Of a stretch of 64,000 nt of DNA, positions 16,413 to 36,973 are shown piece by piece. Below the pieces are notes generated by a model. It was not told the origin of the DNA and ran no database searches. It saw only the letters and a program-made list of their open reading frames with translations. Location of the stretch: positions 62,001-126,000 of the forward strand of contig JAPPFM010000009.1 of NCBI GenBank assembly GCA_028821605.1, in the 5' to 3' direction. Source of the DNA: Candidatus Poribacteria bacterium. GTDB taxonomy: Bacteria; Poribacteria; WGA-4E; WGA-3G. The translations under genes and the position numbers were made by a program. The stretch's first letter is position 1. Each line of letters starts with the position of its first letter.

Positions 16413-16434
16413 CTAAAATACAGACTGGAGACCC

Positions 16435-17582: not shown

Positions 17583-17862
17583 CCAAACGCCTCAAAAAAG
17601 AAAGTGCCTTATTGGTATATAGTGACGCGACTTGAGGATAAAAACTTACACAATTCCGCGAAAGAATAGTATTTTTATGGAAAAATATCGATCAGAAGGA
17701 TGGAGAATATCGATCAGAAGGTTTGCCTAAAGTTACGAATCCCACTCAGAAAACAGATATCGGTCTTTTCGATGTTATTCTAAATTTTTTATTTTTAAAC
17801 AACAAAGATCAGAAGTTTTTATGCGTTCAGAAAGCCGTGATAGTTTGAAGAAGAAAATATCC
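17583..17862. other. AT-rich intergenic region with short direct repeat
   Basis: No gene is seen. The 16-mer AATATCGATCAGAAGG occurs at 17684 and again at 17706, with a partial third copy (AAAGATCAGAAG) near 17805. The region separates the IS605 relic from the 3' end of the ABC transporter gene. Its function, if any, is unknown. Confidence 0.5.
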
Positions 17863-19698: not shown

Positions 19699-19758
19699 TT
19701 TTTAATTGTTCCTTGCGGTTCGGTCAAGACAGACAGTTCCCATTCTTGTGAGCAATTC

Positions 19759-21594
19759 CTATTGGTACCAGTGTGCTTGTGCTTGAAAAAATCTGGCGTA
19801 GAGACCATCTTGGGCAAGTAACGCCTCGTGCGTGCCGTCTTCAACAATACGACCTTCATCTAATACCAAAATACGGTCAGAAAGACGCGCGGACCCGATG
19901 CGATGTGAAATCAGGAACGTCATCCGCCCCGACGCAAGTTCAACGAAACGTTGATAAAGTTCGACTTCGGCTTGTGGATCCAACGCTGCAGTCGGCTCGT
20001 CAAGCACAAGGACTTGCGGATTCCTAACTAAAGCCCGTGCAAGTGCAACTTTTTGCCATTCGCCTCCAGAGAGTTCCGCGCCTTCCCCTTCTTCGCCGAG
20101 TGAAGGGTCAAGGAAGGTATCCAAGCCACGCGGCAGCGTCTGAAAACGTGCCTCGATGCCAACCGCATTGATGACGCGCCAGAGCGCGTCGTCATCAATA
20201 TGGAGGTTCGGGGGCCCTGGCACCAATTCTTCACGCACAGGTCTACGAAATCGCGCAAAGTCTTGGAAAACGGCGGCACAGTTAAGTGCCATCTGTTCTG
20301 GGGCAATTGCGGCTATATTTTTGTCATCATATCGAATGGTGCCATCATCGGGCTGGTATAATCCGAGCAGTAGTTTGATAAGTGTTGACTTGCCCGCGCC
20401 ATTAACCCCTACAATACTAATTACCTCGCCGGGACGCACATGAAAGTTTATGTCTTGTAACACATCGTCGGTCGCGCCGGAATAGCGGAAACGTAGATTG
20501 CGGACTTCTACGCCTTGCTGTAGAGGTTGCGGGAATGTCTCGGTTCCTGACTGCGTCCGCGCTGTTTCTCCGCGTTCTAAGAGGAGATGCAAATCACGAA
20601 GCAAGGGGACATCTTCAAGTATTTTTTGTATTTCCCTAAGCAATCCCTCCAGGTCTCCTTGGAAGAATGCAGCAGCACCAGTAAGAATCACATAATCCCC
20701 AAGTGTGAGATTACCCTCCACAATACGCGCAGCGAGTATGCCAATCGCTACTGCATAAGCAATCATTTCAGCGATAGTCGTACCGATGGATCCTCTCGCT
20801 TCTGTCCAGATCTTTGCCAGCGATTCTTTCTGCCATTTTTGGTGGTTCGTTCGCCAGCGTCCAAAAAGCAGATTGAAAAGACCGTAAAGGCGTACTTCCT
20901 GTCCAGAGGAAGTGCCGAGCAATAAGCTCAGCATATAATCCATCATACGCCGGACGGGTGTTGCTGCGTAATCGTGGCTGTACCTGCTTTCGGCTGTCTT
21001 AACTTTAATCCAAGCGGAGGGTAGTGCGGGTAACACGACTACGAGTACCAACAGTGGATCCGCTATCCATAGGAGAACCCCGTACCCCGCTAATGTCACG
21101 CAGAGTTGCCCAATTTCCGTTATAAATCGCAGCAGGTTGGTGAGCCGATGCCCGAGTGCTTGTCGCGCCCGTTGTATCAAATCGTACGTCTGCGGTTGAT
21201 CAAAAACGGCAAAGTCGATATGCGTTGTCGCTTCAAGTAAGGCCCCCTGCTGATGGAGACCAATGAGGTTTTTCATTTTCCATTGCAGATATCCATCACA
21301 GGTGCCTGCTATATTTCTCAGCATTGCTAAAAGCACGAGTGCTGCTACCCATGGTGCTGCGGTTTCTAAACTCAAATCCGCTTCCTGATCGAGAAAAGCA
21401 GCGATGAGATTCACCAGTTCCCGACTTGCCCAGAGAATGCCTATAGGAATACACCCGTGTGCGAGTGTCAGCAGTGTTTGTGCAATCGCTCCGAATCGGC
21501 TGGCGTGCCACGCAACAAGGAAAAAACGACACAGCGTCTTTATTGCAGACGGACGGGATTCTGTATCGGGAGCATTAGAATTATCCGAAACCAT
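19759..21594 (-). CDS. ABC transporter half-transporter (permease-ATPase fusion)
   Basis: A 611-residue paralog of the downstream gene: membrane domain at about 30-330, Walker A GVNGAGKSTLIK, signature LSGGEWQKVALARAL, Walker B VLVLDEPTAALDP and H-loop ISHRIGSARLS. Both proteins have all catalytic motifs, so a heterodimer with two active sites or two homodimers are possible. The frame opens with a TTG at 21606, but the ATG at 21594 with GGAG ten bases upstream is the better start. The two genes form a simple operon. The product is an inner-membrane exporter of unknown substrate. Confidence 0.9.
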   Translation of the reverse strand: MVSDNSNAPDTESRPSAIKTLCRFFLVAWHASRFGAIAQTLLTLAHGCIPIGILWASRELVNLIAAFLDQEADLSLETAAPWVAALVLLAMLRNIAGTCDGYLQWKMKNLIGLHQQGALLEATTHIDFAVFDQPQTYDLIQRARQALGHRLTNLLRFITEIGQLCVTLAGYGVLLWIADPLLVLVVVLPALPSAWIKVKTAESRYSHDYAATPVRRMMDYMLSLLLGTSSGQEVRLYGLFNLLFGRWRTNHQKWQKESLAKIWTEARGSIGTTIAEMIAYAVAIGILAARIVEGNLTLGDYVILTGAAAFFQGDLEGLLREIQKILEDVPLLRDLHLLLERGETARTQSGTETFPQPLQQGVEVRNLRFRYSGATDDVLQDINFHVRPGEVISIVGVNGAGKSTLIKLLLGLYQPDDGTIRYDDKNIAAIAPEQMALNCAAVFQDFARFRRPVREELVPGPPNLHIDDDALWRVINAVGIEARFQTLPRGLDTFLDPSLGEEGEGAELSGGEWQKVALARALVRNPQVLVLDEPTAALDPQAEVELYQRFVELASGRMTFLISHRIGSARLSDRILVLDEGRIVEDGTHEALLAQDGLYARFFQAQAHWYQ

Positions 21595-21690
21595 TTTTAT
21601 CTCCAATAAAAAGAGTCTACGGCGTTTAATCCGAAGACTTTAAAAAAAATCACTTAAAGTTTCAAAACGGACGGATTGTGATCTGCAAAA

Positions 21691-21747: not shown

Positions 21748-22557
21748 TTATTGTTCTGCGTTCTGCACTTCAGGTTCTGGACGTGTAACGATCCACTCTT
21801 GGAAAGCTGCCATGTCTCCAAAAAACGATCGCATGAGCGCGAATTCACCGGGGGCGGCAATCGCGCACCGCAGAAGCCCTTCCTGCTCCCCGTAAGTCTC
21901 TAAGCGGTTACGCCAGGCTTCTTGAAACACCTTACTGTCTTCTGTCATGAATATGGAAGACATACCGATTTGTACGATTTTGGTGTGCCAGCCGGATACT
22001 TCTTCATCGCTCTCCATCAAGGGTTCTATCAAATGCGTCTGCTGGAGTTCATTAAGTTCCTTCATATTGTCCCGTGGGTCTTCAACTGTGGTGCCCCACT
22101 CTCGAACAACGAAGTAGTAATTCTCCCAAATTTTTAGTTCTTCTTCCGTCATACCTACTCCGATAGTGGCTTTGATTCTGGAGAGTGCGGCAGCTTTGAT
22201 ATTTTCTGTTGGCATCGCGTTGACGTACGCCGGAAAGTCTTCGTAGTCCGCTCCTTCTTGTGCTTTCAAATAGGCGAGATAAGGATCGCTTGACAGAATA
22301 TTTTCTAAATCGCTTGGTGTTTGTGCTACGGAGGGATCCCCTATGGCTTCAAGAAGTTGGGACAAAAGTTCCTCCTGTTCTTCAGTCAAAGGTTCACGTG
22401 CAGACTCTCTTAGTGCTCGTCTGTGTTGTCTGTGTTTCTCGGTCATCTGTTCCATCTCCTCCATCATTTTCCCAAACCATGGAACAACAAACACAGCACC
22501 ACCAACGAGAAGAAGAACACCTATACCGATAAGAATCAGAAATATTGGTTTTTTCAT
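21748..22557 (-). CDS. Single-pass membrane protein, member of a local paralog family
   Basis: The 269-residue protein begins with one membrane helix (MKKPIFLILIGIGVLLLVGG) and then a helical, acidic domain that should lie outside the cytoplasm. The segments DLENILSSDPYLAYLK and, at the end, YGEQEGLLRCAIAAPGEFAL...FQEW match the protein at 23717 and, more distantly, those at 24568 and 29096. The family is not one I recognise. All members sit among the sigma-propeller genes, which suggests they are accessories or targets of that system. AGGAGG precedes the ATG. Confidence 0.7.
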   Translation of the reverse strand: MKKPIFLILIGIGVLLLVGGAVFVVPWFGKMMEEMEQMTEKHRQHRRALRESAREPLTEEQEELLSQLLEAIGDPSVAQTPSDLENILSSDPYLAYLKAQEGADYEDFPAYVNAMPTENIKAAALSRIKATIGVGMTEEELKIWENYYFVVREWGTTVEDPRDNMKELNELQQTHLIEPLMESDEEVSGWHTKIVQIGMSSIFMTEDSKVFQEAWRNRLETYGEQEGLLRCAIAAPGEFALMRSFFGDMAAFQEWIVTRPEPEVQNAEQ

Positions 22558-23491: not shown

Positions 23492-23519
23492 GTTGTTCTC
23501 CTAAAGGATTGATCTGAAA

Positions 23520-23673
23520 AAACTCACCTTTAACCCAATTCGAGAAGACTCCGAAGTCGGTAAGTCGTTCAGGATTTGTCAGGTGAGTTTAAATTCAAGG
23601 GCAACAAATCAAGTTGAACTCATCATTTGAGTTTGTGTCCTAAGCCGTATTACATCAAAGTAGGTTGGCTTAG
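23520..23673. other. Structured intergenic region with three stem-loops
   Basis: Three inverted repeats lie in sequence: AAACTCACCT/AGGTGAGTTT (23520 and 23581, 10-bp perfect stem, 51-base loop), AACTCA/TGAGTT (23617-23633), and CTAAGCC/GGCTTAG (23640-23673). Read on the minus strand they sit in the leader of the gene starting at 23491. They may be a terminator followed by a structured leader. No known riboswitch is recognised. Confidence 0.45.
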
Positions 23674-23716
23674 CGAGATAAAATATTCAATTTTTTCCCT
23701 CACTGATAAAACAGGT

Positions 23717-24571
23717 TCATTCATCTGTTTTTTCTTTTTTCTCTTCAGGCTCCGCTTCTGTTTTCAAAGATGTCTGGATCCATTTTTCAAATGCTGCGGT
23801 GTCCTCAAAAAACGAACGGACGAGAGCGAATTCAGTTGGCGTTGCAATCGCACACCGCAGTAGCCCCTCCGACGAACCGTGTTTTTCCAAACGCTCGCGC
23901 CACGCGTCATGAAAAACTTCAGTGTCCGTCTGTGCTGTAAGAGTGGAAACCATAGACATCTGCGTCAATTCTGATATATGGGAAAACAATTCCGCCGCTG
24001 GGTAAATTCCCATCAAGGGTTCCATCAAGTTTTTGGTTTGAAAGGCGACAAGTGCATTGGTTTTACCAAGAATGTCTGGTTCCTCCACGAGCAGCGAGCG
24101 GAATTTGAAGTAGTAATCTGTGCAAATTGATAGTGCTTTCGCCTTCGTATTTGGAGGTAACGCTTCTTTCAAAGAAAACAACACTTTGGTTTTTCGCTTC
24201 GGTGTTGGCATCACCGCAACGTAGTCTAAGAAATCTTTATACGTTTTCCCAGTTTCTGATTTCAGATAGGCTAAGTAGGGTTCACTGGATAAGATGTCAT
24301 CTAACGCACCGGTATTTTTAGACAGTTGACGCAGCAGTTTTTGTTGTGTCTCAGTCAAAGGTTTCTTGACTAATTCCTCCAGTGCCTTTTTACGCTTCTC
24401 GTGATCCTCCATTACATCTTCCACTCCCTGCATCATTTCACCTACCAATTCATTTCCTGCTTCCGTTTCGGGTTCGATTTCTTCGGCACCTTCAGCGGTA
24501 TTGTGAATGTAGAGGGAGAAAAGTAGAAACAGTAAGAAAAGAATCCTGAATTTTACAACGTTTTGCTTCAC
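23717..24571 (-). CDS. Secreted helical protein, member of a local paralog family
   Basis: The 284-residue protein has a signal peptide (FRILFLLFLLFSLYIHNTAEGA) and a helical acidic body. It is the closest relative of the protein at 21748: both contain ILSS(D/E)PYLAYLK and the C-terminal EGLLRCAIATPTEFAL...FEKW. It starts with GTG at 24571, overlapping the stop of the upstream gene as GTGA, so translation is probably coupled. The tail is Lys/Glu-rich. Function unknown; the location suggests a role in the envelope branch of the sigma-propeller island. Confidence 0.7.
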   Translation of the reverse strand: MKQNVVKFRILFLLFLLFSLYIHNTAEGAEEIEPETEAGNELVGEMMQGVEDVMEDHEKRKKALEELVKKPLTETQQKLLRQLSKNTGALDDILSSEPYLAYLKSETGKTYKDFLDYVAVMPTPKRKTKVLFSLKEALPPNTKAKALSICTDYYFKFRSLLVEEPDILGKTNALVAFQTKNLMEPLMGIYPAAELFSHISELTQMSMVSTLTAQTDTEVFHDAWRERLEKHGSSEGLLRCAIATPTEFALVRSFFEDTAAFEKWIQTSLKTEAEPEEKKEKTDE

Positions 24572-25740
24572 GGTTGAACCTCCGGTGATAAAGATTGGGG
24601 TGTCAGTTGACGAATGTCCGGTTTCGATGGTGCTGATTCTGTTGATTGTTCAGAGAGCCATGTTTCTATTTCAGCAGGTGAATCGAAACGTTCCAAAAGC
24701 CAGTTTGCGCCTTCTGTGTCGGTTTCAAGCAGCTGCAGCAAGCCCTCATCTGTTCCGTGCTGAGATAGGATTTCCTTGATAGAATTTATTCTCGCCGTGG
24801 ACATTGGCGTAGGTAAATCTATTTCAGATTCCTTTGCTACGACCGGCGCACTTCCGCTTGGATCAACAGGTTGAGATTCAATCGTTTCTGTCGTGTCTGT
24901 CGCGGTTTGTGGTGTTGGTGTTGACACTGCTGCTGAATCTTGGGGATTGATTTCTGTAAGCATCTGTGTGAATGTAGACATGTCTTCTGGGATATCATAC
25001 TGAATGTTCTCTAACTCGCCTCCTACAAGGATTTGTTGCGTCATCCAGTCCATCTGTTGACCTATCTCTCCTTTAAAGTTGGCAAGTGCCCAAAATTGGA
25101 AATCTTGCTCCCGAGCGAGATTCATCGTAACAGCCGACATTACCTCTTGAAAGTTGCCAGGTGTCGCGGCAACTATTTCGTGGATTCGCTGTGCCATTTC
25201 CACTTCATAATCCTCAGGTTCACCTTCAGGAAAATGCCTTCGGAAAGCCTCTTGTGAAATTTTCGCGAAATCAATCTTGGGACCGTTTTCACCCATAAAA
25301 ATGTTCATGTATTCTTGGATGTTGAAATCAGGAAATTCACCCTCCTCTAAACCTTCCATTTTTTCCTCCATGTACTTCATAGCTGCATCCATTCGGGCTG
25401 CGAACTCTGGACCCATAGCCTCCTTAATACGTTCAGGGTCTTTTGAACGCAGTGCTTCTTTGAGTTTGTCCATATCTACGTCTGACCCAAATGTTTCGGA
25501 GAGTGTCTCTTTGAGTTTATCCACATCTGCGTCTGACCCAAATGCTTGGGAGAACGCATCAGTTTCAGTAAGGGGGTTTGCTCCATTGTTTTCGGGCATA
25601 TCGGCTGGCTTTATACTTTTCTGAACAGACTCCCTTTCGACGGGTGCTGCGACTTTGGAACTTGGTGCGCGTAAAAACGCAAAGCCAATAAGAGAGACAA
25701 AGCACAGTCCTATAATAATCGGAAACAGACGATTTTTCAT
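24568..25740 (-). CDS. Membrane-anchored acidic protein with C-terminal paralog module
   Basis: The 390-residue protein has an N-terminal helix (LFPIIIGLCFVSLIGFAFL), a region with two near-identical segments (SQAFGSDADVDKLKETLSE and SETFGSDVDMDKLKEALRS), a helical domain, a Thr/Gln/Pro linker and a C-terminal module with HGTDEGLLQLLE and ETWLSEQ that resembles the ends of its neighbours. The ATG at 25740 is chosen because AGGAGG precedes it and the helix then starts at residue 5. It begins 19 bases after the sigma-propeller gene that ends at 25760, and its stop overlaps the next gene by four bases, so the three are very likely co-expressed. Confidence 0.7.
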   Translation of the reverse strand: MKNRLFPIIIGLCFVSLIGFAFLRAPSSKVAAPVERESVQKSIKPADMPENNGANPLTETDAFSQAFGSDADVDKLKETLSETFGSDVDMDKLKEALRSKDPERIKEAMGPEFAARMDAAMKYMEEKMEGLEEGEFPDFNIQEYMNIFMGENGPKIDFAKISQEAFRRHFPEGEPEDYEVEMAQRIHEIVAATPGNFQEVMSAVTMNLAREQDFQFWALANFKGEIGQQMDWMTQQILVGGELENIQYDIPEDMSTFTQMLTEINPQDSAAVSTPTPQTATDTTETIESQPVDPSGSAPVVAKESEIDLPTPMSTARINSIKEILSQHGTDEGLLQLLETDTEGANWLLERFDSPAEIETWLSEQSTESAPSKPDIRQLTPQSLSPEVQP

Positions 25741-25759
25741 GAAAGACCTCCTGTCTTTA

Positions 25760-28700
25760 TCAATTGTTTTCGTTTTCAAGTGAGATGTGGAACATCCCGC
25801 GTTGTTTAGTGGCTACATAAAGCCTATTACCATTAACAGTAGCAGAGATAATACTGTCTGGTACCTCTGGCGATATTTTTTCCCATTCACCCCGCTTATT
25901 CAATCGGTGTGCACCCCCACTGCCGACACCATAAACCGTTGTGCCAGCCGCAGTCATTCGGTCTATGATAGTGTTCATCCCTGTTTTGTCAGTAATCACG
26001 CGCCAATGTTCACCGTCTTCTGATGTCAGAATCCCTGCGTTCGTTGCGACGTACACCGTTGAACCTGCAAACACTATCTCGTTGATATGCGCAAAGCGAA
26101 GCGGTAGGTTTGGCGTTAGGTCCTTCCACGTATTGCCGCCATCAAATGATCGAAATAGATGACCATCACGTTTTCCGACGTAGACGGTTTCATAGGAAAC
26201 AGCAAGTTTGAGGTTTTCCATACTGTCTCCCAGGCTTTCAATATCCTTTGGGAGTTCCGCCATATCTATCAGTCCAGTATTGAACCATTCGGATTCACCG
26301 CGTTTCCATCGAAAAAGCCTGCGCTTATATTCCACGTAGAACGTCTCGCCGCTGACTGCGAATCCACTGGGATACTTCTCCAGATGTTGCATTGGGTCCG
26401 TCTGCTGAACTATATCAGTGAAGTCATCTGCTTTTTCAGCATCACCAGAAGTGTTATCTGCTATATTTTCTTTGGGGACTTTCTGCGATACTGCCTTTAA
26501 TTTGTCTATGGAGAGATCACCTCGGAAAGGTGGAACCCCTTGGATAGGTACGAAGATACTGCCATCCGCAGAAAGATGAAAAATGAGCAGTTCATTTTCT
26601 TCTTTCGCTGCAATACCGTAGAATATATCGTCAGAAATAGCGGACTTAGAGGAAACCAAAAAATCGTTAGGAACGACTTCTTTTTCTGATTTTAGTGTAG
26701 GTTCTCCAGAATCAAGGCGAAGTGCTTTCCAAGACTCCCCGCCATCAGTGGACCTGGTAATAGACGTGTTAGTATTGGTATAGAGGGCATTCTTGAACGC
26801 AACTAAGTTATATATTCTGGTGCCCACCATCCCCTTCATAAATGAATGCCACGATTCACCGCCATCGGTTGAACGGGTGGGACCGAAGTACCCACCTTTG
26901 AAAAGTGTATTTTCGTCCGACACCACAGCAGGAAATATACTCGCCATCATGGAATTCATCATTGAATTTGGGTCAAGAATATCAGTACCGAGTTCAGTCC
27001 ATGTGTTTCCACCATCCATTGAGCGGAATGTGCCCATCATTCCCAGTGCTAAGACGGTTTCTCCAGCCGCTAAAACTTTAATACCTGGCGACACTTTCAT
27101 TGTAAACAAATTGCTCGTCGGGGTTATCTCAGTCCATGAGTTTCCCAAATCTGTTGAATGGAAGAGTTCCCATGCCTGCGAATTGTTGCCAGGCATAAGT
27201 TGCTTCACGTACGCAGCTCTACCTTCAGCGGTCATAAGTTGATATAAATCGGGACCTGTTCCAACGTAGAGGTTGTTTCCAGAGACTGCCAAGGAGTGGA
27301 TAGCGTTGGTGGTATCCACCGGTAATTTTTCCCACGTGCCTGCGTGTAAGCGGTAAAGCCCTTGGGTTGTACCAACAAATACCGTGTTTTCAACAGCGGC
27401 AATTGCGAGAATGATTCTGCCTTCTACTTTATCTACTAACGGGGTCCATTGTTTATCGGCATCCGTAGATCGGAAAACCTGCTCGTCAAGGGCAAGGTAG
27501 CGTCCATCATCCGTTATAACGAGTCCGACAGCATGTCCTTTCGGACGCTCGCCAAGCGATTTCCAGTTCTCACCTCTGTCCGTTGAAGCAATCACTTCAT
27601 TGGTAGAGACGAGATAGAGCGTATCCCCTCGCTCTGCCATCGGCGCGTTCCCCGTAATCGGTACAGAGGCATTGATGAGTGCCCATGTAGACGCGTCTGG
27701 TGTCAATTTATAGATACCAATGGATGAAGCAGCGTATATGTCGCCTGTAGCACTTACCTGTAAACCTAACACAGAAGCCTCTGCTGGACCACTTGCTTGT
27801 ACCCACTGCTGCTGTGTTGACGGGCGCGTCTCCTTTTCTACCCGTCCTGCCCCGAGTACAACAGGGTCCGAAAGTTGCGGACCCGTACTGCCGCGCTTAC
27901 CGGTGTTCTCGAAACGTCCGGCTTGGTTCCGTAAATCCGGTTTTGCCTGTGAGTCAAGTACGATAGGTGCGTCAATAATGTCAACGGTGATTTCGGACTG
28001 CGCGTTCAGATTGTAGGGTTTCTGAAAGCGAGCAAGGTATTGGGATCCCACACCCATTATGAGAAAGATAACAATGGCGGTTGTAGCGGTGATAGCCCAC
28101 GGCATGAGTGGCTTGTTGATCGTAGGACTTACCGGCTTTATATCGGCGACTTGCCTGATGATGTTTTCAGTGAAATTTGTAGGGAGATGTACGTTGCCAA
28201 GCGTTTCTTGGATCATGTTTTCTTGCTCTTTTAGGCGATTCCGTGCGCGTTGGAGGCGACTCTTGACTGTGTTTGGTGATACACCCAAAAACTCACCGAT
28301 CGCTTTAGATGTCATTTCTCCGAGATAGTGGAGTGTCACGACCGTGCGTTCACTCTCCGGCAGTTTTTCTAAAAGGTTTCTAACGCGTCTGCGACGATAT
28401 TCGACAGATGCTTCCTCGCGCTGCTCATCTTCGTAGTGACGATAAGACGATTCGTCTATCTCCTCCCCACTCGTGGTTTCCAAAGATTCTATTGGCGGTT
28501 TCTGCTTTCGATGCCAATCGATACAAATCCGATCCGCAATCACATAGAGCCATCCAGCAAACTGGTTCGGATTCTTCAACGTTGCGAGTTTCTGGTATGC
28601 CTTGAGGAAGGTGTCCTGCGTGAGTTCTTCGGCAATATGGAAATCGCCAATCTTCCGCCACGCGAGCGCGTGGACGCTTTTCTGGTATTTTTTCACCAGC

Positions 28701-28765
28701 GTCGTAAAAGCATTTTCGTTGCCTGTCAAGAATTGGTTAACCAGTTGGGCATCTTCGTTTTTCAT
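25760..28765 (-). CDS. ECF sigma factor - TM helix - Asp-box propeller fusion (copy 1)
   Basis: The 1001-residue chain has three parts. Residues 1-190 are a complete ECF sigma factor: region 2 with HALAWRKIGDFHIAEELTQD and FAGWLYVIADRICIDW, region 4 with LHYLGEMTSKAIGEFLGVSP and KSRLQRARNRLKE. Residues 221-241 are one membrane helix, followed by a juxtamembrane sequence with SEITVDIIDAPIVLD shared by all four tethered sigma factors here. Residues about 310-1000 are a propeller with many Asp-boxes (STDRGENW, STDLGNSW, SMDGGNTW, STDGGESW twice, SFDGGNTW), as in BNR/sialidase-type and Ycf48-like proteins. The sigma part is expected in the cytoplasm and the propeller outside. No anti-sigma factor gene is adjacent. 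Confidence 0.88.
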   Translation of the reverse strand: MKNEDAQLVNQFLTGNENAFTTLVKKYQKSVHALAWRKIGDFHIAEELTQDTFLKAYQKLATLKNPNQFAGWLYVIADRICIDWHRKQKPPIESLETTSGEEIDESSYRHYEDEQREEASVEYRRRRVRNLLEKLPESERTVVTLHYLGEMTSKAIGEFLGVSPNTVKSRLQRARNRLKEQENMIQETLGNVHLPTNFTENIIRQVADIKPVSPTINKPLMPWAITATTAIVIFLIMGVGSQYLARFQKPYNLNAQSEITVDIIDAPIVLDSQAKPDLRNQAGRFENTGKRGSTGPQLSDPVVLGAGRVEKETRPSTQQQWVQASGPAEASVLGLQVSATGDIYAASSIGIYKLTPDASTWALINASVPITGNAPMAERGDTLYLVSTNEVIASTDRGENWKSLGERPKGHAVGLVITDDGRYLALDEQVFRSTDADKQWTPLVDKVEGRIILAIAAVENTVFVGTTQGLYRLHAGTWEKLPVDTTNAIHSLAVSGNNLYVGTGPDLYQLMTAEGRAAYVKQLMPGNNSQAWELFHSTDLGNSWTEITPTSNLFTMKVSPGIKVLAAGETVLALGMMGTFRSMDGGNTWTELGTDILDPNSMMNSMMASIFPAVVSDENTLFKGGYFGPTRSTDGGESWHSFMKGMVGTRIYNLVAFKNALYTNTNTSITRSTDGGESWKALRLDSGEPTLKSEKEVVPNDFLVSSKSAISDDIFYGIAAKEENELLIFHLSADGSIFVPIQGVPPFRGDLSIDKLKAVSQKVPKENIADNTSGDAEKADDFTDIVQQTDPMQHLEKYPSGFAVSGETFYVEYKRRLFRWKRGESEWFNTGLIDMAELPKDIESLGDSMENLKLAVSYETVYVGKRDGHLFRSFDGGNTWKDLTPNLPLRFAHINEIVFAGSTVYVATNAGILTSEDGEHWRVITDKTGMNTIIDRMTAAGTTVYGVGSGGAHRLNKRGEWEKISPEVPDSIISATVNGNRLYVATKQRGMFHISLENENN

Positions 28766-28766
28766 C

Positions 28767-28860
28767 AGTTTACTCCCATGAGATACGGATGTGTGGTTTT
28801 AAAACATGACCCTCGTACTGCCTTCACTAATTAATGACGTAATTTAAAATGCGGAAAGTT
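28767..28860 (-). promoter_or_regulatory. Conserved upstream region of sigma-propeller gene 1
   Basis: On the minus strand this region shares CGTCATTAAT...and GGTCRYG(Y)...TTAAAACC blocks with the regions before the other two sigma-propeller genes (33349 and 36656). Such a block upstream of each copy is what an autoregulated ECF promoter would look like, but the -35/-10 cannot be fixed by eye. Confidence 0.45.
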
Positions 28861-28979
28861 GCATAATGGAAAAAAAGTTGAAAAAATTATATCACAACTT
28901 CACTGAAATGTTCTTTTGATATAGTGAAAAGGAGAATTTGCCGATTGTTTGTGGCGAATACTGCTGTATTTTTTAGATC

Positions 28980-29061
28980 GGATTTTCAGCAGAACGCGAA
29001 AAAGCCAAACCTGTGAGGGACCTTCAATTCCCACAATGGTTTGGCTGTAATTGCGAAACAG
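28980..29061. repeat. 82-bp stem-loop repeat, copy B
   Basis: AGCCAAACC and GGTTTGGCT pair perfectly around GGGACCTTCAATTCCC. It matches the copies at 22963 and 33561. It lies just downstream of the minus-strand gene ending at 29096, and it is the distal part of an intergenic block of about 295 bases that is duplicated at 33348-33642. Confidence 0.7.
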
Positions 29062-29095
29062 AAAATCGTTATAGTGTTTATTGTATTGTTGCTTC

Positions 29096-29893
29096 TTATT
29101 GATGAAACTCTCCAGCCATCCATTTCAACAACACTTTTGGGTCCGTAAAATCTTTGAGAATATATCCGATTAACACGGGGTCCTCAAGCGCGATCCAAAT
29201 AAGCACATCACGTTCGCCGTGTTTATTGAGAAGTTCCTGAGCGAGTGCAGCATCTACCTGCTCAGTTTTTTGGACGTAAAAGCCAAGTTCCACGGTAAAG
29301 AAAATGATTTCCTCCTCATTTAAAGCATTGCCCTCGCCGTCTACAAAATGCTTAAGCCCTATATTTATTGCAGGGCCTTTCATCAACTTCACCAATTCGT
29401 CTTGAAAAATATCAGGATCTTCGTCATGGTATTCACGGGTTAGAACATGTCTATAGTGTACTGCGAAAAGATGTGCATTCGCCGCATCTTCTTCGTCAGG
29501 TTTCTCAAGATGGTGCTTTAAAAATGGCAGGTATCGCGACAGATGAGATGCTGCGATTTTCCAGAATGCATCATAAGTTTGATATTGAGCTTCTATCGGA
29601 TGGTTATGCCTGAGGAAGTCTAAATAGGTTTTGGACGTGACAAGCCGTCGGAGGGTTTTGAAACCTTCATCTAAAATGTCACCAGGGTTTTCACGTTTGA
29701 GGTGTTCAAACGTCTCCTCGATCGTTGGTGGTCGTGCGATTGGCTCAATACCATCCTCCGTGTCAATGTTCTCTTTTTCGGGTTTGAGAGTGCTTGGATC
29801 GGGACTTGATTGACACGCAAAAAATAATGATCCCGCTAAAAGGAGATAGATCTGCAGTTGGTTGAAAAAACGCTCACACTTAAAGAATCGCAT
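29096..29893 (-). CDS. Putative lipoprotein, distant member of the local paralog family
   Basis: The 265-residue protein has an N-terminal hydrophobic stretch ending SLFFACQSS, a possible lipobox with Cys near residue 27, then a Pro/Glu-rich linker and a helical domain. LRRLVTSKTYLDFLRHN corresponds to the ILSSxPYLAYLK segment of its relatives, and the end (KHGERDVLIWIALEDPVLIG...LLKWM) matches their C-terminal module. It sits between two sigma-propeller genes with another lipoprotein 21 bases upstream. Function unknown. Confidence 0.68.
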   Translation of the reverse strand: MRFFKCERFFNQLQIYLLLAGSLFFACQSSPDPSTLKPEKENIDTEDGIEPIARPPTIEETFEHLKRENPGDILDEGFKTLRRLVTSKTYLDFLRHNHPIEAQYQTYDAFWKIAASHLSRYLPFLKHHLEKPDEEDAANAHLFAVHYRHVLTREYHDEDPDIFQDELVKLMKGPAINIGLKHFVDGEGNALNEEEIIFFTVELGFYVQKTEQVDAALAQELLNKHGERDVLIWIALEDPVLIGYILKDFTDPKVLLKWMAGEFHQ

Positions 29894-29914
29894 GTTCGTT
29901 ATATCCTCAGAAGG

Positions 29915-30346
29915 TTAGGGTAATTCTGCTATGTGTCGCTGTGGTTTTAGCGTTATCTCAATCTGCTTTCTACCTGTGCTCCAATTAAGTATGAGTTCGA
30001 CTTTATACGTTAGGAAAGAATCAATGGGATTCTCCAAATCTGTGGGTTCTGTCTTGCTAAATGTAAGGTATAGCGTCACAATGTTGTCGATTTGTTCCCA
30101 TTGATGTTCGTAATCTTCGTGATTAATGACGACTTCAATGATTTTTAAATCCATCGGGGGTTGTGAGAAAACCACCTCTATTTTAGCCTCCCAGCTCTGG
30201 TCGCTGAGTTCGTAGATTTTGGCTTCCTTCACCTTGGCAATGCGGGCGGCTTCTGTTGGATCAATGTACCTATCCGCATTGCACCCAAACAAACAGCCAA
30301 GCAGTACAATAAATATCAAAGGTTTTCTAAGCAGATGATTTTTCAT
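29915..30346 (-). CDS. Small putative lipoprotein
   Basis: A 143-residue protein with a clear lipoprotein signal: LIFIVLLGCLFGC, with the acylated Cys in the LFGC box near residue 22. The mature part has several strand-like segments (WEAKIEVVFSQPP, VTLYLTFSKTEP, YKVELILNWSTG, KQIEITLKP) and looks like a small beta-sandwich. No family is recognised. It is 88 bases downstream of the sigma-propeller gene ending at 30435 and 21 bases before the next lipoprotein gene, so all three may be one transcript. Confidence 0.72.
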   Translation of the reverse strand: MKNHLLRKPLIFIVLLGCLFGCNADRYIDPTEAARIAKVKEAKIYELSDQSWEAKIEVVFSQPPMDLKIIEVVINHEDYEHQWEQIDNIVTLYLTFSKTEPTDLENPIDSFLTYKVELILNWSTGRKQIEITLKPQRHIAELP

Positions 30347-30434
30347 TTATATGCTTCCTTAATCTGTCAAGGAAATGGTGCTTGCGTGTTTGCGAGCGTT
30401 CAGAGTTTAAGGTTGCTGTGTTCGGTTCAGCTGC

Positions 30435-33347
30435 CTACCATTCTTTCTCAAGAGGAACATAAAACATCCCACGCTGTTCAGTCGCAATATAAAGTCTGTC
30501 GCCTTTAGCCACGAAAGAGATGACACTATCTGGCACTTCTGGCGAAATCTTTTCCCATTCCTCACGATTATTCAATCGATAGACACCTTCGTCACCAGCA
30601 CCGTAAACTGTTGTGGTATCCACAGCAATTTGATCGATGAGGGTGTGCGTTCCTGCCGTGTCGGTGATTGCGTGCCAATGTTTATCGTCTCCTAATCTCA
30701 AGACCCCCGCGTCTGTAGCAACATACACTGTTGAACCCGCAAAGATTATATCATTGAAACGCTCAAAACGCAGTGGAAGATTTGAAGTCAAGTCCTTCCA
30801 TGTGCTGCCACTATCAAACGATTGAAAGAGGTGGCCATCGCGTTTTCCGACGTAGACGGTTTCATCGGAAACAGCAAGATTCAAACCTTTTATAATATCA
30901 TAGTCATCATTGGCGGATTCTCCTGTATCTATGAGTCCGGTCCTAAACCATTCCGATTCACCGCGTTTCCACCGAAGAAGCTCTCGCTTGTATTCTACAT
31001 AGAAGGTTTTGCCACTGACTGCAAATGCACCGGGAAATTTTTCGAGGGAATCCATTAAATCTGCCCACGCCTTTAGATCTGTTATAGAAAATTTTTTGCC
31101 AAGAGCTGGTGTGCCTTGGATAGGAATTAACACATTACCATTCGCGGAGAGACGGCAGAGATGAAATGTATTCTCTGTGGCTGAACCAGATGCGATGCCA
31201 TACAGGACACCGTCAGCAATTGCTAATTTTGGAAAAATCAGTGGGAAAGTAGAACTGTTTTCCTCTACCGGTTTTAGTGTGAGTTCGCCTGAAGCCAACC
31301 GAATATGTTTCCACGATTCACCGCCATCGCTGGATTTAGAAACACCCTTGGTGGTACTCGTGTAAAGTTCATTTTTGAACCCCACTAAGTTGAATACTGC
31401 GATACCTGCTATTCCATCCATAAATGAGTGCCATGATTCGCCACCATCGGTTGAGCGTGTAAGTCCAGAGACTCCGGCTTTGAGGAATGTATTTTCATTC
31501 ACTGCTACCACAGGGGTCCAAGTAAGTATTGTCATTGAATCCTTACCCAATTTTGTCCACGTTTTTCCACCGTCGCTTGAATGGAAACTTATCAATCCTA
31601 ATACCAGAATACCCTTTTCAGCTGCCAAGACTTTAACGCCCGACGAGATTTTCATCATGTGCGAATTGCTTGTCGGCGTTATATCGGTCCACGAATCGCC
31701 CAAATCGGTTGAGTGGAAGACTTCCCATGTCCTTACATCCGAATTGATGTTGCTCATAACGTTCTCTAAATACGTCTGTCTGCCTTCAGGGTCTCCCAAC
31801 TGAGAGAGGTCGCGTCCTGTTCCGATATAGAGATTATTCCCCGAGACTGACAAAGAGTGGATGGCTTTCGTGGTATCTATCGACAATTTCTCAGATGTCC
31901 CTGAATGTAAACGATAGAGACCTTGGTTTGTCCCAACAAACACTGTGTTTTCAATAGCAGCGACTGAAAGAACCTCACCCTCTACCACGTCATTGTTAAG
32001 TGGTGTCCACTGCTTACCCACATCCGTAGATTGGAAAATACCTTCATCTCGAAACGCAAGGTACAATGCATCATCCGTTATCACGAGTCCAATAACGCGT
32101 CCCTGTGGACGCTCGCCAAGTTTTGTCCATGTCTCGCCTCTATCTTTTGACGCAAACACACCACTGGGAAAAACGAGATAGAGGGTGTCGTTTCGTTCTG
32201 CCATCGGTATTCCGTGGTTGTCTGTGGTAACCTCTGGAGGGAGCGGACTCACGAGCGTCCAGGCAGTGGCATCTGGTGCTAATCTGTAGATACCGATTTT
32301 AGAAGTAGCATAGACATCTCCCCATGAACTTACTAATACACCCGATACTGAACCCGCTTTTTCAGGCCCGCTTGCCTGTATCCACTGCTGTTTTGTTGAC
32401 GGACGCGTCTCCTTTTCTACCTGTGCCGCGGCAAGCAGTACGGGTTCGGAAACTTGCGGACCGGCACCGCTGCTTTTACCGGTAGTATCGAAACGTCCGG
32501 ATTGGTTTCGTAGATCAGGCTTTGCTTGCGTATCAAGTACGATGGGCGCATCAATGATTTCAACGGTTGTTTCAGATTGTGCGTTCAAGTTGTAGGGCTT
32601 CTGAAAACGGGCGAGGTATTGCGAACCCACACCCATCATGAGAAAAATAAAAACGGCTGTTGCAGCAGAGAGTGCCACCGGCACTAACGGTCTGCTGCTC
32701 ATAGGGGGTGTTGGCTTTATATTAGCAGTTTGTCGTATAATATTCTCGGTGAAGTTGGCAGGCAAGTGTACGCTGCCGAGTGTTTCTTGAATCATGTTTT
32801 CATGCTCCTTTAGACGATTCCGTGCGCGTTGGAGGCGACTTTTTACTGTATTTGGGGACACACCTAAAAACTCACTGATCGCTTTATAGGTCATTTCTCC
32901 AAGATAGTGAAGTGTCACAACTGTGCGTTCGCTCTCCGGTAGTTTTTCAAGGAGGTTTTTGATGCGTCTGCGCCGATGTTCGACGGAGGCTTCCATGCGC
33001 TGTTCGTCTTCGTAGTGGCGGTAAGACGATTCTTCTATTTCTTCTCCACTCGTGGTTTCTAAAGATTTCATCGGAGGTTTCTGCTTTCGATGCCAAGCGA
33101 TACAAAGCCGATCAGCAATCACATAAAGCCAGCCAGCGAACTGGTTCGGATTCTTCAACGTTCCAAGTTTCTGGTATGCTTTGAGAAAAGTATCCTGCGT
33201 CAGTTCCTCTGCGATGTGGAAGTCGCCAACCTTCCGCCATACCAGCGCGTGGATGCTCTTCTGGTGTTTTTTCACCAGCAGGGTGAAGGCATTCTCGTCA
33301 CCTGACAAAAAGCGGTTGACGAGTTGTGCATCTTCGGTTTTCATCAA
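30435..33347 (-). CDS. ECF sigma factor - TM helix - Asp-box propeller fusion (copy 2)
   Basis: A 970-residue paralog of the proteins at 25760 and 33736, closest to the latter. Sigma region 2 (HALVWRKVGDFHIAEELTQD) and region 4 (LHYLGEMTYKAISEFLGVSP) are intact. A membrane helix follows near 220-240 (VALSAATAVFIFLMMGVGSQ) and then the shared SETTVEIIDAPIVLD sequence. The propeller has Asp-boxes such as SKDRGETW, STDLGDSW, SSDGGKTW, STDGGESW, SSDGGESW and SFDSGSTW. The start follows a TAGGAG motif. It is transcribed ahead of two lipoprotein genes. Difference between the copies is greatest within the propeller, which fits different ligands. Confidence 0.88.
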   Translation of the reverse strand: MMKTEDAQLVNRFLSGDENAFTLLVKKHQKSIHALVWRKVGDFHIAEELTQDTFLKAYQKLGTLKNPNQFAGWLYVIADRLCIAWHRKQKPPMKSLETTSGEEIEESSYRHYEDEQRMEASVEHRRRRIKNLLEKLPESERTVVTLHYLGEMTYKAISEFLGVSPNTVKSRLQRARNRLKEHENMIQETLGSVHLPANFTENIIRQTANIKPTPPMSSRPLVPVALSAATAVFIFLMMGVGSQYLARFQKPYNLNAQSETTVEIIDAPIVLDTQAKPDLRNQSGRFDTTGKSSGAGPQVSEPVLLAAAQVEKETRPSTKQQWIQASGPEKAGSVSGVLVSSWGDVYATSKIGIYRLAPDATAWTLVSPLPPEVTTDNHGIPMAERNDTLYLVFPSGVFASKDRGETWTKLGERPQGRVIGLVITDDALYLAFRDEGIFQSTDVGKQWTPLNNDVVEGEVLSVAAIENTVFVGTNQGLYRLHSGTSEKLSIDTTKAIHSLSVSGNNLYIGTGRDLSQLGDPEGRQTYLENVMSNINSDVRTWEVFHSTDLGDSWTDITPTSNSHMMKISSGVKVLAAEKGILVLGLISFHSSDGGKTWTKLGKDSMTILTWTPVVAVNENTFLKAGVSGLTRSTDGGESWHSFMDGIAGIAVFNLVGFKNELYTSTTKGVSKSSDGGESWKHIRLASGELTLKPVEENSSTFPLIFPKLAIADGVLYGIASGSATENTFHLCRLSANGNVLIPIQGTPALGKKFSITDLKAWADLMDSLEKFPGAFAVSGKTFYVEYKRELLRWKRGESEWFRTGLIDTGESANDDYDIIKGLNLAVSDETVYVGKRDGHLFQSFDSGSTWKDLTSNLPLRFERFNDIIFAGSTVYVATDAGVLRLGDDKHWHAITDTAGTHTLIDQIAVDTTTVYGAGDEGVYRLNNREEWEKISPEVPDSVISFVAKGDRLYIATEQRGMFYVPLEKEW

Positions 33348-33348
33348 A

Positions 33349-33440
33349 TTTCTCCTACGTAGAATACAACAGCGTGGTTTTAACGCGCGACCATCGAACT
33401 GCTGTTACTATTAATGACGCGATTTAAAAGACAGAATGGT
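33349..33440 (-). promoter_or_regulatory. Conserved upstream region of sigma-propeller gene 2
   Basis: This block is nearly identical to 36656-36745: a palindromic CCTACGTAGG next to the ribosome binding site, then blocks reading on the minus strand GTCATTAATAGTAACAGCAG and GGTCGCGCGTTAAAACC. The AAC and CGTT words about 18 bases apart resemble ECF-type -35 and -10 elements; this assignment is inference. Confidence 0.5.
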
Positions 33441-33560
33441 GCATAACAACAAAAAAGTTGAGAAAATTATATCACAACTACGCTGAAATGTTTCTTTTCA
33501 TATAGTGAAAGGTGGAATTTACTGATTGTTTGTAGCGAATACTACTGTATTTTTTACATC

Positions 33561-33642
33561 AGATTTTTCAGCAGAACGCGAAACAGCCAAACCTATGAAG
33601 GATCTTCAATTCCCACAATAGTTTGGCTGTAACTGCGAAATA
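33561..33642. repeat. 82-bp stem-loop repeat, copy C
   Basis: CAGCCAAAC and GTTTGGCTG pair as in copies A and B; the loop differs slightly (GGATCTTCAATTCCC). It lies about 95 bases beyond the 3' end of the sigma-propeller gene ending at 33736. Confidence 0.7.
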
Positions 33643-33735
33643 GAACTTAATTTTTTGTTTTTCGTTTTGATTTACTTTTCAGACATAGTTAATCACTTGG
33701 TAATTCAGAAATTAACACCATCACGATACGCTTGC

Positions 33736-36654
33736 CTACCGTTCTTCTTCAAGAGGAACGTAGAACATCCCGCGATGTTTGGTGACGATATAAAGTCTAT
33801 CGTCCTTAATAACCAGCGACTTGACGCTATCTGGTGCTTCTGGCGAGAGTTTTTCCCATTCCTCACGATCATTTAATCGATAGACACCTTCGTCCCCAGC
33901 ACCGTAAACTGTTGTAGTATCCACAGCAATTTGATCAATGAGGGTGTGCGTTCCTGCTGTATCGGTGATTGCATGCCAATGTTCACCGTCTTTTGAAGTC
34001 AAGACACCCGCGTCTGTAGCAACGTACACTATTGCACCCGCAAAGATTATATCATTGAAACGCTCAAAACGCAGTGGTAAGTTTGAGGTTAAATCGCTCC
34101 ATGTGCTGCCACTATCAAATGACTGAAAAAGGCTGCCATCGCGTTTCCCGACATAGACGGTTTCCTCAGAGACAGCAAGCTTAAGACTTTTCGGACCATC
34201 ATTACCATCGTTGGAGGGTTCGCTTGTATCTATGAGTCCAGTGTTAAACCATTCCGACTCGCCGCGTTTCCACCGGAGGAGCTGCCGTTTGTGCTCTACA
34301 TAGAAGGTCTTGCCGCTGACCGCAAATGCGCTCGGAGATCTTTCGCGTTGACGTATTATATCTGCCCACGCCTTTGTATCTGTGATGAGGGGATCTTCAC
34401 CGAGTGTCGGTGTTTCTCGGATCGGAACTAACACATTGCCATTCGCAGAGAGGCGACAGATATGCAATTTATTCTGCGGAACTGAAGCAGTAGCGGCTCC
34501 ATAGAGGATGCCATCCGCAATCGTTAATTTTGGAGAAATCAGTGGCTTAGTGGAACTGGCTTTCTTTGTAGGTTTTAGTGTGAACCAGCCGAAATCCATG
34601 GGAACATCTTTCCACGATTCGGCACCATCGCTGGATTTGAAAGCACCTTTGGATGTGCTCGTATAAAGTTCGTCCTTAAATCTCCTTAAGTTGTATATGT
34701 TAGTACTTACGATGCCATCCGTAAATAGATGCCACGATTCGCCACCATCGGTTGAGCGTGTAAGCCCAGGTGTTTCAACTTTAAAAAATGTATTTTCATC
34801 CACTGCTACTGCAGGGGTCCAACTAAGTATAGTCATTGAATCTCTACTCAATTCTGTCCATGTTTTTCCACCGTCGGTTGAGCGGAAACTTACCATTCCT
34901 AATGCCAGAATGCTATTCCCAGCTGCCAAGACTTTAACGCCCGACGAGATTTTCATCATGTGTGAATTGCTTGTCGGTGTTATATCGGTCCACGATTCAC
35001 CCAAATCGGTTGAGTGGAAAATCTCCCATTTCCTGACATTAGTGTTGCTCTTAAGTTCCTCCATAAGTTTCTCCATGTACGCTGACGTTCCTTCAGGGCT
35101 TCTCAATTGAGAAAGGTCGCGTCCAGTTCCGACATAGAGATTATTGCCAGAGACTGACAAAGAACGGATGGCTTTCGTGGTATCTATCAACAATTTCTCG
35201 CATGTCCCTGAATGTAAACGATAGAGGCCCTTGTTTGTTCCGACAAACACTGTATTTTCAATAGCAGCGACTGAGAAAACCTCGCTATCTGACACTTCAT
35301 TGTTGAGCTGTGTCCACTGCTTACCCGCATCTGTAGACCGGAAAATGCCTTCATTTCGAAACACAAGGTACAATGCATCATCCGTTATCACGAGCCCAAT
35401 AACGCGTCCGTTCGGACGCTCGCCAAGTTTCGTCCATGTCTCACCTCTATCTTTTGATGCAAACACACCATTGGGAAAAACAAGATAGAGGGTATCGTTT
35501 CGTTCTTCTATCGGTATTCCGTGGTTGTCTACAGAAGCCTCTGCGGGAAGTGGACTCACGAGCGTCCATGCAGGGGTATCGGGTGGTAATCTATAGATAC
35601 CGATTCGTGAAGTCGCGTAGACATCCCCCCATGAACTTACCAATAAGCCTGATGCTGAGGTGCCTTCTTCTGGACCGCTCGCTTGTATCCACTGCTGTTT
35701 TGTTGGCGGGCGCGTCTCCTTTTCTATCTGTGCAGCGGCAAGCAGCACGGGTTCAGAAACCTGTGGACCGGCACCTTCACCTTTACCGGTGATATCGAAA
35801 CGTCCCGCTTGATTCCGTAAATCCGGCTTTGCCTGTGTATCAAGGACAATGGGGGCATCAACAATTTCAATGGTGGTTTCAGATTGTGCGTTCAGGTTGT
35901 AAGGTTTCTGAAAACGAGCGAGGTGCTGCGAACCCACACCCATTATGAGAAAAATAAAAATGGCTGTTGTGGCTGAGAGTGCCCATGGCATGAGCGGTTT
36001 ACTGTTCGTAGGCGATACCGGTTTTATGGTAGCGATTCGCTGCATAATATTTTCGGTGAAAGTAGTGGGTAGATGTACGCTTCCGAGTGTTTCTTGAATC
36101 ATGTTTTCTTGCTCCTTTAGGCGATTCCGGGCGCGTTGGAGACGGCTCTTAACCGTGTTTGGAGACACGCCTAAAAATTCGCTAATCGCTTGGCATGTCA
36201 TTTCTCCAAGATAGTGGAGTGTTACGACTGTGCGTTCGCTCTCCGGTAGTTTTTCCAATAGATTGCTGATGTATCCGCGACGGTATTCAGCAGATGCCTC
36301 GTTGCGTTGTTCATCTTCATAATGCCGATAAGATGATTCCTCTATCTCCTCTCCACTCGTGGTTTCTAAGGATTCCATCGGTGGCTTCTGCTTTCGGTGC
36401 CAAGCGATACAAAGCCGATCAGCAATCACATAGAGCCAGCCAGCGAACTGGTTCGGATTCTTCAACGTTCCAAGTTTCTGGTATGCCTTGAGGAAGGTAT
36501 CCTGTGTGAGTTCCTCGGCAATATGGAAATCGTCAACCTTCCGCCATACCAGCGCGTGGATGCTTTTCTGGTGTTTTTTTACCAACGAAGTGAAGGCATT
36601 CTCGTCACCTGACAAAAAGCGGTGTACGAGTTGTGCATCTTCGGTTTTCATCAA
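33736..36654 (-). CDS. ECF sigma factor - TM helix - Asp-box propeller fusion (copy 3)
   Basis: The 972-residue protein has the same order as the other two: ECF sigma factor (HALVWRKVDDFHIAEELTQD; LHYLGEMTCQAISEFLGVSP), membrane helix near 222-242 (ALSATTAIFIFLIMGVGSQ), the juxtamembrane SETTIEIVDAPIVLD, then an Asp-box propeller (SKDRGETW, STDAGKQW, STDLGESW, STDGGKTW, STDGGESW, SSDGAESW, SFDSGSTW). All sigma determinants look intact, so it is not obviously decayed. It is the first of three tandem copies on the minus strand; the spacer to copy 2 is 388 bases and includes that copy's own conserved upstream block, so each copy probably has its own promoter. Confidence 0.88.
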   Translation of the reverse strand: MMKTEDAQLVHRFLSGDENAFTSLVKKHQKSIHALVWRKVDDFHIAEELTQDTFLKAYQKLGTLKNPNQFAGWLYVIADRLCIAWHRKQKPPMESLETTSGEEIEESSYRHYEDEQRNEASAEYRRGYISNLLEKLPESERTVVTLHYLGEMTCQAISEFLGVSPNTVKSRLQRARNRLKEQENMIQETLGSVHLPTTFTENIMQRIATIKPVSPTNSKPLMPWALSATTAIFIFLIMGVGSQHLARFQKPYNLNAQSETTIEIVDAPIVLDTQAKPDLRNQAGRFDITGKGEGAGPQVSEPVLLAAAQIEKETRPPTKQQWIQASGPEEGTSASGLLVSSWGDVYATSRIGIYRLPPDTPAWTLVSPLPAEASVDNHGIPIEERNDTLYLVFPNGVFASKDRGETWTKLGERPNGRVIGLVITDDALYLVFRNEGIFRSTDAGKQWTQLNNEVSDSEVFSVAAIENTVFVGTNKGLYRLHSGTCEKLLIDTTKAIRSLSVSGNNLYVGTGRDLSQLRSPEGTSAYMEKLMEELKSNTNVRKWEIFHSTDLGESWTDITPTSNSHMMKISSGVKVLAAGNSILALGMVSFRSTDGGKTWTELSRDSMTILSWTPAVAVDENTFFKVETPGLTRSTDGGESWHLFTDGIVSTNIYNLRRFKDELYTSTSKGAFKSSDGAESWKDVPMDFGWFTLKPTKKASSTKPLISPKLTIADGILYGAATASVPQNKLHICRLSANGNVLVPIRETPTLGEDPLITDTKAWADIIRQRERSPSAFAVSGKTFYVEHKRQLLRWKRGESEWFNTGLIDTSEPSNDGNDGPKSLKLAVSEETVYVGKRDGSLFQSFDSGSTWSDLTSNLPLRFERFNDIIFAGAIVYVATDAGVLTSKDGEHWHAITDTAGTHTLIDQIAVDTTTVYGAGDEGVYRLNDREEWEKLSPEAPDSVKSLVIKDDRLYIVTKHRGMFYVPLEEER

Positions 36655-36655: not shown

Positions 36656-36745
36656 TTTCTCCTACGTAGGATACAGCTGCACGGTTTTAACGCGCGACCA
36701 TCGGACTGCTGTTACTATTAATGACGCGTTTTAAAGAGCCAAAGG
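36656..36745 (-). promoter_or_regulatory. Conserved upstream region of sigma-propeller gene 3
   Basis: Nearly identical to 33349-33440 through the CCTACGTAGG palindrome, the GGTCGCGCGTTAAAACC block and GTCATTAATAGTAACAGCAG. Similarity to the other copies ends near 36765, marking the edge of the duplicated unit. Confidence 0.5.
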
Positions 36746-36973
36746 TTGCATAGTGGCAAAAAATTGATATACTGCAGGAGCTGCCCCGGTCGCGATTTAT
36801 CCCATAATCCGCCAAGTTCATAAAAATCCGAGATTCAGACAGAGCATTTCGGTGAAATATTTTACATCTAACTCACGTTAAATTAATACCTATGGTGTTG
36901 TTTGTAATCGCACCGATCATCTGGAACTGAACACCGACAACTGATAACTGACAACCATTTGAAAATGTTTCGC
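36746..36973. other. Intergenic DNA with ACTGATAACTGA-type tract
   Basis: No gene is seen. At 36924-36956 there is a tract of degenerate words (AACTGAACACCGACAACTGA, then TAACTGACAACC). Similar tracts are found near 43521, 43588, 44788, 55997, 56947 and 62149. Confidence 0.5.

Follow-up and report, generated by a model that had tools for sequence, protein, structure and literature searches.

The window, a 64,000-nucleotide stretch of a Poribacteria genome, carries three fusion genes on its minus strand, ORFs A, B, and C, each joining an ECF sigma domain, a membrane helix (TM), a juxtamembrane segment, and an Asp-box propeller in a single chain. A fourth gene leads the same cassette into another C-terminal domain, and envelope protein and ABC exporter genes lie among and downstream of the fusions:

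33736..36654 (-): ORF C, 972 aa, fusion of sigma, TM, and Asp-box propeller (ORF call, Pfam, hydropathy, AF2)
36106..36654 (-): ECF sigma domain of ORF C (regions 2 and 4), residues 1 to 183 (Pfam, structure match)
35935..35991 (-): membrane helix of ORF C, about residues 222 to 240 (hydropathy)
35800..35922 (-): conserved juxtamembrane segment of ORF C, residues 245 to 285, core QKPYNLNAQSETTIEIVDAPIVLDTQAKPDLRNQAG (no covering Pfam family)
33739..35703 (-): twin seven-bladed Asp-box propeller of ORF C, residues 318 to 972 (Pfam, AF2, fold search)
30435..33347 (-): ORF B, 970 aa, fusion of sigma, TM, and Asp-box propeller; TM about 32628 to 32684, propeller 30438 to 32396 (ORF call, Pfam, hydropathy)
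29096..29893 (-): 265-aa protein of the partner family, with a signal resembling that of lipoproteins (LFFAC)
25760..28765 (-): ORF A, 1001 aa, fusion of sigma, TM, and Asp-box propeller; TM about 28049 to 28105, propeller 25763 to 27817 (ORF call, Pfam, hydropathy)
24568..25779 (-): 403-aa partner gene, downstream, with a single hydrophobic anchor at the N terminus; 20-nt overlap with the end of ORF A (operon)
23717..24571 (-): partner-family envelope protein, 284 aa; 4-nt overlap with the 403-aa gene
21748..22557 (-): 269-aa envelope protein of the partner family
17863..21606 (-): pair of ABC exporter half-transporters (611 and 615 aa), on the strand of the fusions and downstream of ORFs A to C
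16413..17432 (-): 339-aa gene leading into the fourth fusion
14865..16412 (-): fourth member, same sigma-TM-juxtamembrane cassette with another C-terminal domain of about 200 residues, 515 aa

In ORFs A to C, Pfam places Sigma70_r2 at about residues 23 to 90 and Sigma70_r4_2 at about 126 to 179, both well above their cutoffs (PF04542, 47 to 53 bits against 24; PF08281, 59 to 67 bits against 25.7), and TIGR02937 scores 97 to 105 bits against 42.9. Alignment to solved ECF factors covers the whole sigma part (SigW 5wuq, residues 8 to 181, E 2e-30; Escherichia coli SigE 1or7, E 2e-22), in agreement with the complete sigma factor, regions 2 and 4, claimed in the initial annotation. Among the best 25 rows per protein, no sigma equivalog or subfamily model for the named NCBI ECF subfamilies (SigW, RpoE, Planctomycete gvs1, etc.) exceeded its cutoff, TIGR02989 reaching 76 bits against 124.6. 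Translation of ORFs B and C more likely begins at the ATG of codon 2, which follows an AGGAG.

Hydropathy analysis gives a single strong segment from residue 221 or 222 in all three chains, right behind the sigma domain and where one membrane helix had been proposed; ORF C shows a weaker second window at 869, within the propeller. The juxtamembrane core described earlier, SETTVEIIDAPIVLD, is found in the window fusions. Downstream of the helix, each chain contains six or seven Asp boxes (S.D.G..W), and Pfam matches to DUF6242, Sortilin-Vps10, PSII_BNR, and BNR cover about residues 350 to 970, as expected for the Asp-box propeller of roughly 650 residues that had been read from the sequence; AF2 and Foldseek refine it to a twin seven-bladed form. 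The full-length AF2 model (nine sequences) is fair over residues 319 to 972 and poor over the sigma part, and a separate model of the N-terminal 290 residues has a pLDDT of 42, so that an inhibitory sigma contact is unreadable in these models. In Foldseek the propeller lies nearest to GH74 xyloglucanase 6p2l (E 1.5e-23), and VIA-align superposes it on GH74 2cn3 with a Z score of 22.6 over 562 residues (rmsd 6.1, 20% identity); the outer domain thereby shows the twin seven-bladed fold of GH74. Hybrid sensors of Bacteroides, BT4673 and BT4663, follow with their outer domains among the next Foldseek matches. The twin propeller is probably a glycan- or protein-binding sensor, and its fold suggests that a glycan may be the ligand.

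A modular family of fusions in Poribacteria

Sigma70_r2 matches the genome (5.99 Mb) 82 times, over 40 of these matches lying in open frames of at least 500 residues, and at least 42 chains share the cassette of sigma domain, helix, and juxtamembrane segment. The three tandem copies first described are real ORFs, and their number understates the case, since the window holds a fourth member and the genome at least 42, belonging to a lineage-wide modular family. Conservation runs through helix and juxtamembrane region, and the segment common to the 42 members reads RFQKPYSFxAxSExTVEIIDAPIVLDxxxKPxVRNQxG, so that the conserved core holds well beyond the window. No Pfam family explains it (best E 0.009 with 42 regions searched). 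A search of other genomes for the same domain order, which the initial annotation had suggested, recovered the cassette in 69 of 85 Poribacteria genomes by its helix-juxtamembrane profile, several of them single contigs, and in 0 of 302 genomes outside the phylum. By this profile search these Poribacteria genomes contain at least about 1,670 copies in all, with at least 52 in the fullest genome.

Could the fusions be separate genes joined by misassembly or frameshift? The draft assembly, with its repetitive paralogs, leaves room for such an error, which had been named as a possible refutation. However, orthologous tandem arrays recur at this locus in OX638352.1, a chromosome record of 5.75 Mb (locus L009), and in two other assemblies (L010 and L011), with two fusions in each stretch read compared with three in the window. 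The frames are intact, synteny is conserved, and the architecture is identical in the 69 genomes. Values of dN/dS, 0.04 to 0.08 for the sigma part and 0.22 to 0.28 for the propeller, indicate that both parts are kept under purifying selection and that the sensor evolves faster. Given the independent assemblies and this selection, we regard an artifact as refuted, its probability being negligible. One shortened Asp-box fusion (C48:60452-61966, plus strand), in which homology runs past a TAA stop, is probably a decaying member.

The cassette is joined to varied C-terminal domains. Asp-box propellers account for 21 of the 42 and WD40 domains for at least six; the others include Kelch, Reg_prop, redoxin/thioredoxin, M16-like peptidase, GHL15, and Big_5 domains, and a C-type lectin domain that comes with carboxypeptidase-regulatory repeats. 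On a cassette tree that excludes the recognition helix, the Asp-box label changes at least seven times and the WD40 label at least four, on well supported branches. At C16:47523-89846 (L034 to L036), a 42-kb cluster of ten fusion genes alternates with genes for exported and ABC-2 type permease-like proteins, and near neighbors on the cassette tree bear Asp-box, WD40, and other domains.

Sensor domains also occur in proteins without a sigma part. For 12 of the 42 fusions, a non-sigma homolog of their own C-terminal domain lies within three genes, compared with a mean of 3.0 and a maximum of 8 in 2000 permuted neighborhoods, and the N termini of these homologs are mostly signal-peptide-like. A general rule of one exported homolog beside each fusion was rejected, as the remaining 30, including the three window fusions, have none. 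An exported Asp-box version, with a signal peptide, occurs once in the genome (C10_230541) and aligns to most of the ORF C propeller.

Fusions that lack the helix are observed as well. Two join sigma to an Asp-box propeller (C59:17447-20254 and C59:22347-25106, both minus strand; L062), with the juxtamembrane segment absent too and no promoter match upstream in a two-block matrix scan; the propeller is accordingly not always exported. Others join sigma to repeat-like, redoxin, and M61-peptidase domains (C13:57880-60060, plus strand; C55:88171-89928, C51:3792-5738, and C2:38467-41448, minus strand). The variety of these helix-free proteins marks the sigma domain as a promiscuous fusion partner in Poribacteria.

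Predicted promoters upstream of the fusion genes

Upstream of the fusion genes we observe an ECF-like pattern, AATTATGCAACC-N15-CGCGTCACTATA, with the consensus ATGCAMC-N19-GTCAYTA and a GTC-type -10 element. Four sites are predicted in the window:

36717..36755 (-): predicted ECF-type promoter of ORF C, CACTATGCAACC-N15-CGCGTCATTAAT (PWM 29.4; conserved in L009 and L010)
33410..33448 (-): predicted promoter of ORF B, TGTTATGCACCA-N15-CGCGTCATTAAT (PWM and genome-wide pattern)
28830..28868 (-): predicted promoter of ORF A, CATTATGCAACT-N15-TACGTCATTAAT (PWM and genome-wide pattern)
17618..17655 (-): predicted promoter before the 339-aa gene leading into the fourth fusion, AATTGTGTAAGT-N14-CGCGTCACTATA (PWM 26.7)

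With a two-block matrix, 29 of the 42 fusions, the window three included, reach 16 or higher, where shuffled sequence peaks at 14. Since this matrix was trained on the same upstream regions that it scored, independent checks were made. In a scan of 780 kb of sigma loci there were 66 promoter matches, compared with 2 in a reversed control; almost all of the 66 lie immediately upstream of a fusion gene or of the gene that opens its operon. A strict pattern matched the whole genome 14 times (3 when reversed), three of the 14 being the window genes, and a wider pattern with a spacer of N17 to N20 matched 25 times (2 in the control). The promoter also precedes 41 of the 48 fusions fetched from other Poribacteria genomes. 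At the orthologous loci the sites are kept in L009 and L010 and were not found in L011. The promoter-binding residues of regions 2 and 4, whose loss would have counted against the earlier proposal, are not lost and are matched to the upstream promoter. Each predicted promoter is probably controlled by its own fusion.

Several wider-pattern matches outside the fetched sigma loci precede exported-protein or ABC transporter genes. At C2:251661 (L076), C54:73628 (L077), and C2:13892 (L075) the pattern stands before exported TolB/PD40-like arrays and ABC transporter operons; with no fusion gene in the stretch read, these sites are candidate remote targets.

Variation within the -35 block was compared with about 290 protein columns. 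Across 29 fusions, base 3 of the block (TGC) covaries most strongly with S170 (p 5e-6) and N166 (p 1e-5), both within the region 4.2 recognition helix. In a larger set of 67 promoters S170 ranks first (p 4e-12) and N166 third, and some other columns rise too, probably through shared descent. A sign test over independent lineages gives only three or four contrasts, all in the expected direction, so that with ancestry counted the covariation is suggestive and not significant.

Proposed signaling mechanism and related systems

Six zf-HC2 anti-sigma genes are present in the genome, all six beside stand-alone ECF genes and none beside any of the 42 fusions. Within the fusions, the HxxxCxxC motif is found in residues 170 to 330 of 0 of 42, and the linker of about 36 residues from sigma4 to the helix is free of Cys in all 42. 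The one conserved Cys is at column 82 (41 of 42), the next best column being 154 (8 of 42). Neither the window proteins nor the 42 juxtamembrane regions gave a FecR or STN match in Pfam. The genome also encodes one RseP-like site-2 protease (S2P).

We consider it probable that each fusion is an autoregulated one-piece receptor whose outer domain controls a tethered sigma factor, itself freed probably by regulated proteolysis. The ECF sigma would lie in the cytoplasm, one helix would span the membrane, and the C-terminal domain would lie outside together with the juxtamembrane segment; at rest the sigma domain would be kept at the membrane without a separate anti-sigma factor. A signal read outside would free it, most likely via regulated intramembrane proteolysis at the juxtamembrane/helix region. 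The freed sigma would then drive the ATGCAMC-N19-GTCAYTA promoter before its own gene or operon, and this activation would amplify the receptor together with the co-transcribed exported proteins and ABC exporters.

This layout requires an outer propeller, and the extracytoplasmic placement in the initial annotation very probably holds on strong indirect evidence, namely, the exported homolog C10_230541 and the occurrence of other members' sensors as exported neighbors; the positive-inside signal is weak (2.3 versus 1.7 K+R in 15-residue flanks). The propeller and juxtamembrane segment might instead be cytoplasmic, with a peripheral hydrophobic stretch and the propeller as a scaffold. A scaffold role is proposed for the WD40 extensions of ECF57, thought to work via protein interaction (PMC8999054), and a cytoplasmic propeller would suit the sigma-propeller members without a helix in this same genome. 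Such an arrangement appears very improbable for the window fusions, as helix and juxtamembrane segment are kept in 42 of 42 whatever the sensor, the same sensor domains are found as exported proteins, and lectin, peptidase, and glycosidase-type sensors suit the outside. A different question is what the outer domain senses. It could be the exported neighbor homolog, competing or assembling with it, so that the switch would report partner export or folding or the envelope state. The excess of homologous neighbors (12 of 42 fusions against 3 expected) and the partner-family envelope genes that overlap or follow ORF A speak for this. We think it unlikely nonetheless, because 30 of 42 fusions, those in the window among them, lack an adjacent own-sensor homolog and the GH74 and hybrid-sensor folds favor glycan binding.

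As to how the sigma acts, regulators of the CadC/ToxR type bind DNA at the membrane, and a comparable tethered mode, in which the sigma is never cut loose and the signal alters its exposure so that RNA polymerase is recruited at the membrane, is the main rival. It would fit the lack of a recognizable protease site or anti-sigma domain, the short sigma-helix linker with neither Cys nor HxxxCxxC, and the location of the promoters at the fusion gene itself. Yet a sigma on so short a tether must bind the large holoenzyme and reach its promoter, and the known membrane-anchored fused ECFs are released by proteolysis, as in IutY, or thought to be, as in ECF52 (PMC8999054). We therefore rate tethered action as rather unlikely. 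Proteolytic release is, we infer, the leading mechanism, given the absence of an anti-sigma factor and of a zinc finger or Cys, the RseP-like protease, and the precedent of IutY, a fused ECF released by Prc and RseP (PMC8999054).

Single chains that combine an ECF with membrane and outer parts are already known from IutY and ECF52 (PMC8999054). IutY (ECF243) of Pseudomonas putida likewise combines an ECF sigma, a helix, and an outer signaling part in a single chain without a separate anti-sigma factor (PMC8999054); its extension, however, is a fused anti-sigma of the iron cell-surface signaling kind, whereas the Poribacteria fusions have no FecR/STN-type domain by Pfam, a linker of about 36 residues, and large interchangeable outer domains. 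ECF52/53/48 of Actinobacteria (e.g., SCO4117) share the ECF sigma, the C-terminal membrane helix, which hydropathy also finds in our fusions, and an outer domain including a carbohydrate-binding domain, but place a ZAS zinc finger between sigma and helix, where 0 of 42 Poribacteria fusions have the motif or a Cys. ECF57 and the WD40-ECFs of Planctomycetes (PMC8999054, PMC8567305) resemble them in lineage-specific expansion and a C-terminal propeller, WD40 in some Poribacteria members. ECF57 differs in the two conserved cysteines that join sigma2 and sigma4, where the Poribacteria fusions conserve C82 only; the latter also keep helix and juxtamembrane cassette constant, and half of their sensors are Asp-box. 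As these tested defining features of ECF52, ECF243, and ECF57 failed, secure membership is limited to the ECF superfamily. SigI/RsgI of cellulolytic Clostridia are multi-copy polysaccharide-sensing pairs with a similar layout of many paralogs, outer polysaccharide-sensing domains, one helix, and juxtamembrane self-cleavage of RsgI (PMC10575876), yet sigma and membrane receptor are two proteins there and one in Poribacteria. In Bacteroides hybrid two-component systems (BT4663, BT4673), whose sensors are among the best PDB fold matches of the propeller, with GH74 nearer, a twin-propeller outer sensor and transcriptional control also share one chain, the output being a histidine kinase/regulator instead of a sigma factor.

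Single-chain ECF fusions are thus known, and their lineage-wide modular form is new, as are the ECF-type promoters before 29 of 42 fusion genes, the suggestive tracking of residues 166 and 170 by -35 variants, and the mostly exported sensor homologs adjoining 12 fusions. The open-access literature searched contained no mention of ECF sigma factors in Poribacteria, which is not proof of novelty. Tentatively, the cassette of sigma, helix, and juxtamembrane trigger may be a portable Poribacteria invention that has repeatedly replaced the signal peptide of exported proteins. A genome would then hold up to about 50 such receptors, each a single autoregulated chain whose promoter diverges in step with its recognition helix, and these would partly stand in for anti-sigma pairs and two-component sensors. 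Poribacteria are an uncultured sponge-symbiont lineage. If the proposed mechanism is true, they would use the simplest outside-to-promoter signaling design, one protein, tens per genome, offering a handle on what sponge symbionts sense. With its promoter predicted, each receptor could be tested in a laboratory host with no need to culture Poribacteria, and the exchange of sensors on an unchanging cassette lends itself to engineered biosensors.

The partner envelope family of the window (21748 to 25779 and 29096 to 29893) is without a Pfam match, and its members share the ending HGxxEGLLxxxxxxPxxxxLxxxFxDxxxFxxW. The family was rejected as a companion of all fusions, as it adjoins few clusters only; it also occurs near fusions on C2 and C16 and near a further sigma fusion gene. 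This last (C56:40761-44795, plus strand; L068:6762-10793) is a very unusual frame of 1344 residues that combines an ECF sigma with a complete FtsZ and with a PHP/DNA polymerase III alpha chain. It is found end to end at 80 to 91% identity in three closed or near-closed genomes, which carry separate FtsZ and DnaE too, and a fourth genome has a 554-aa sigma-FtsZ frame.
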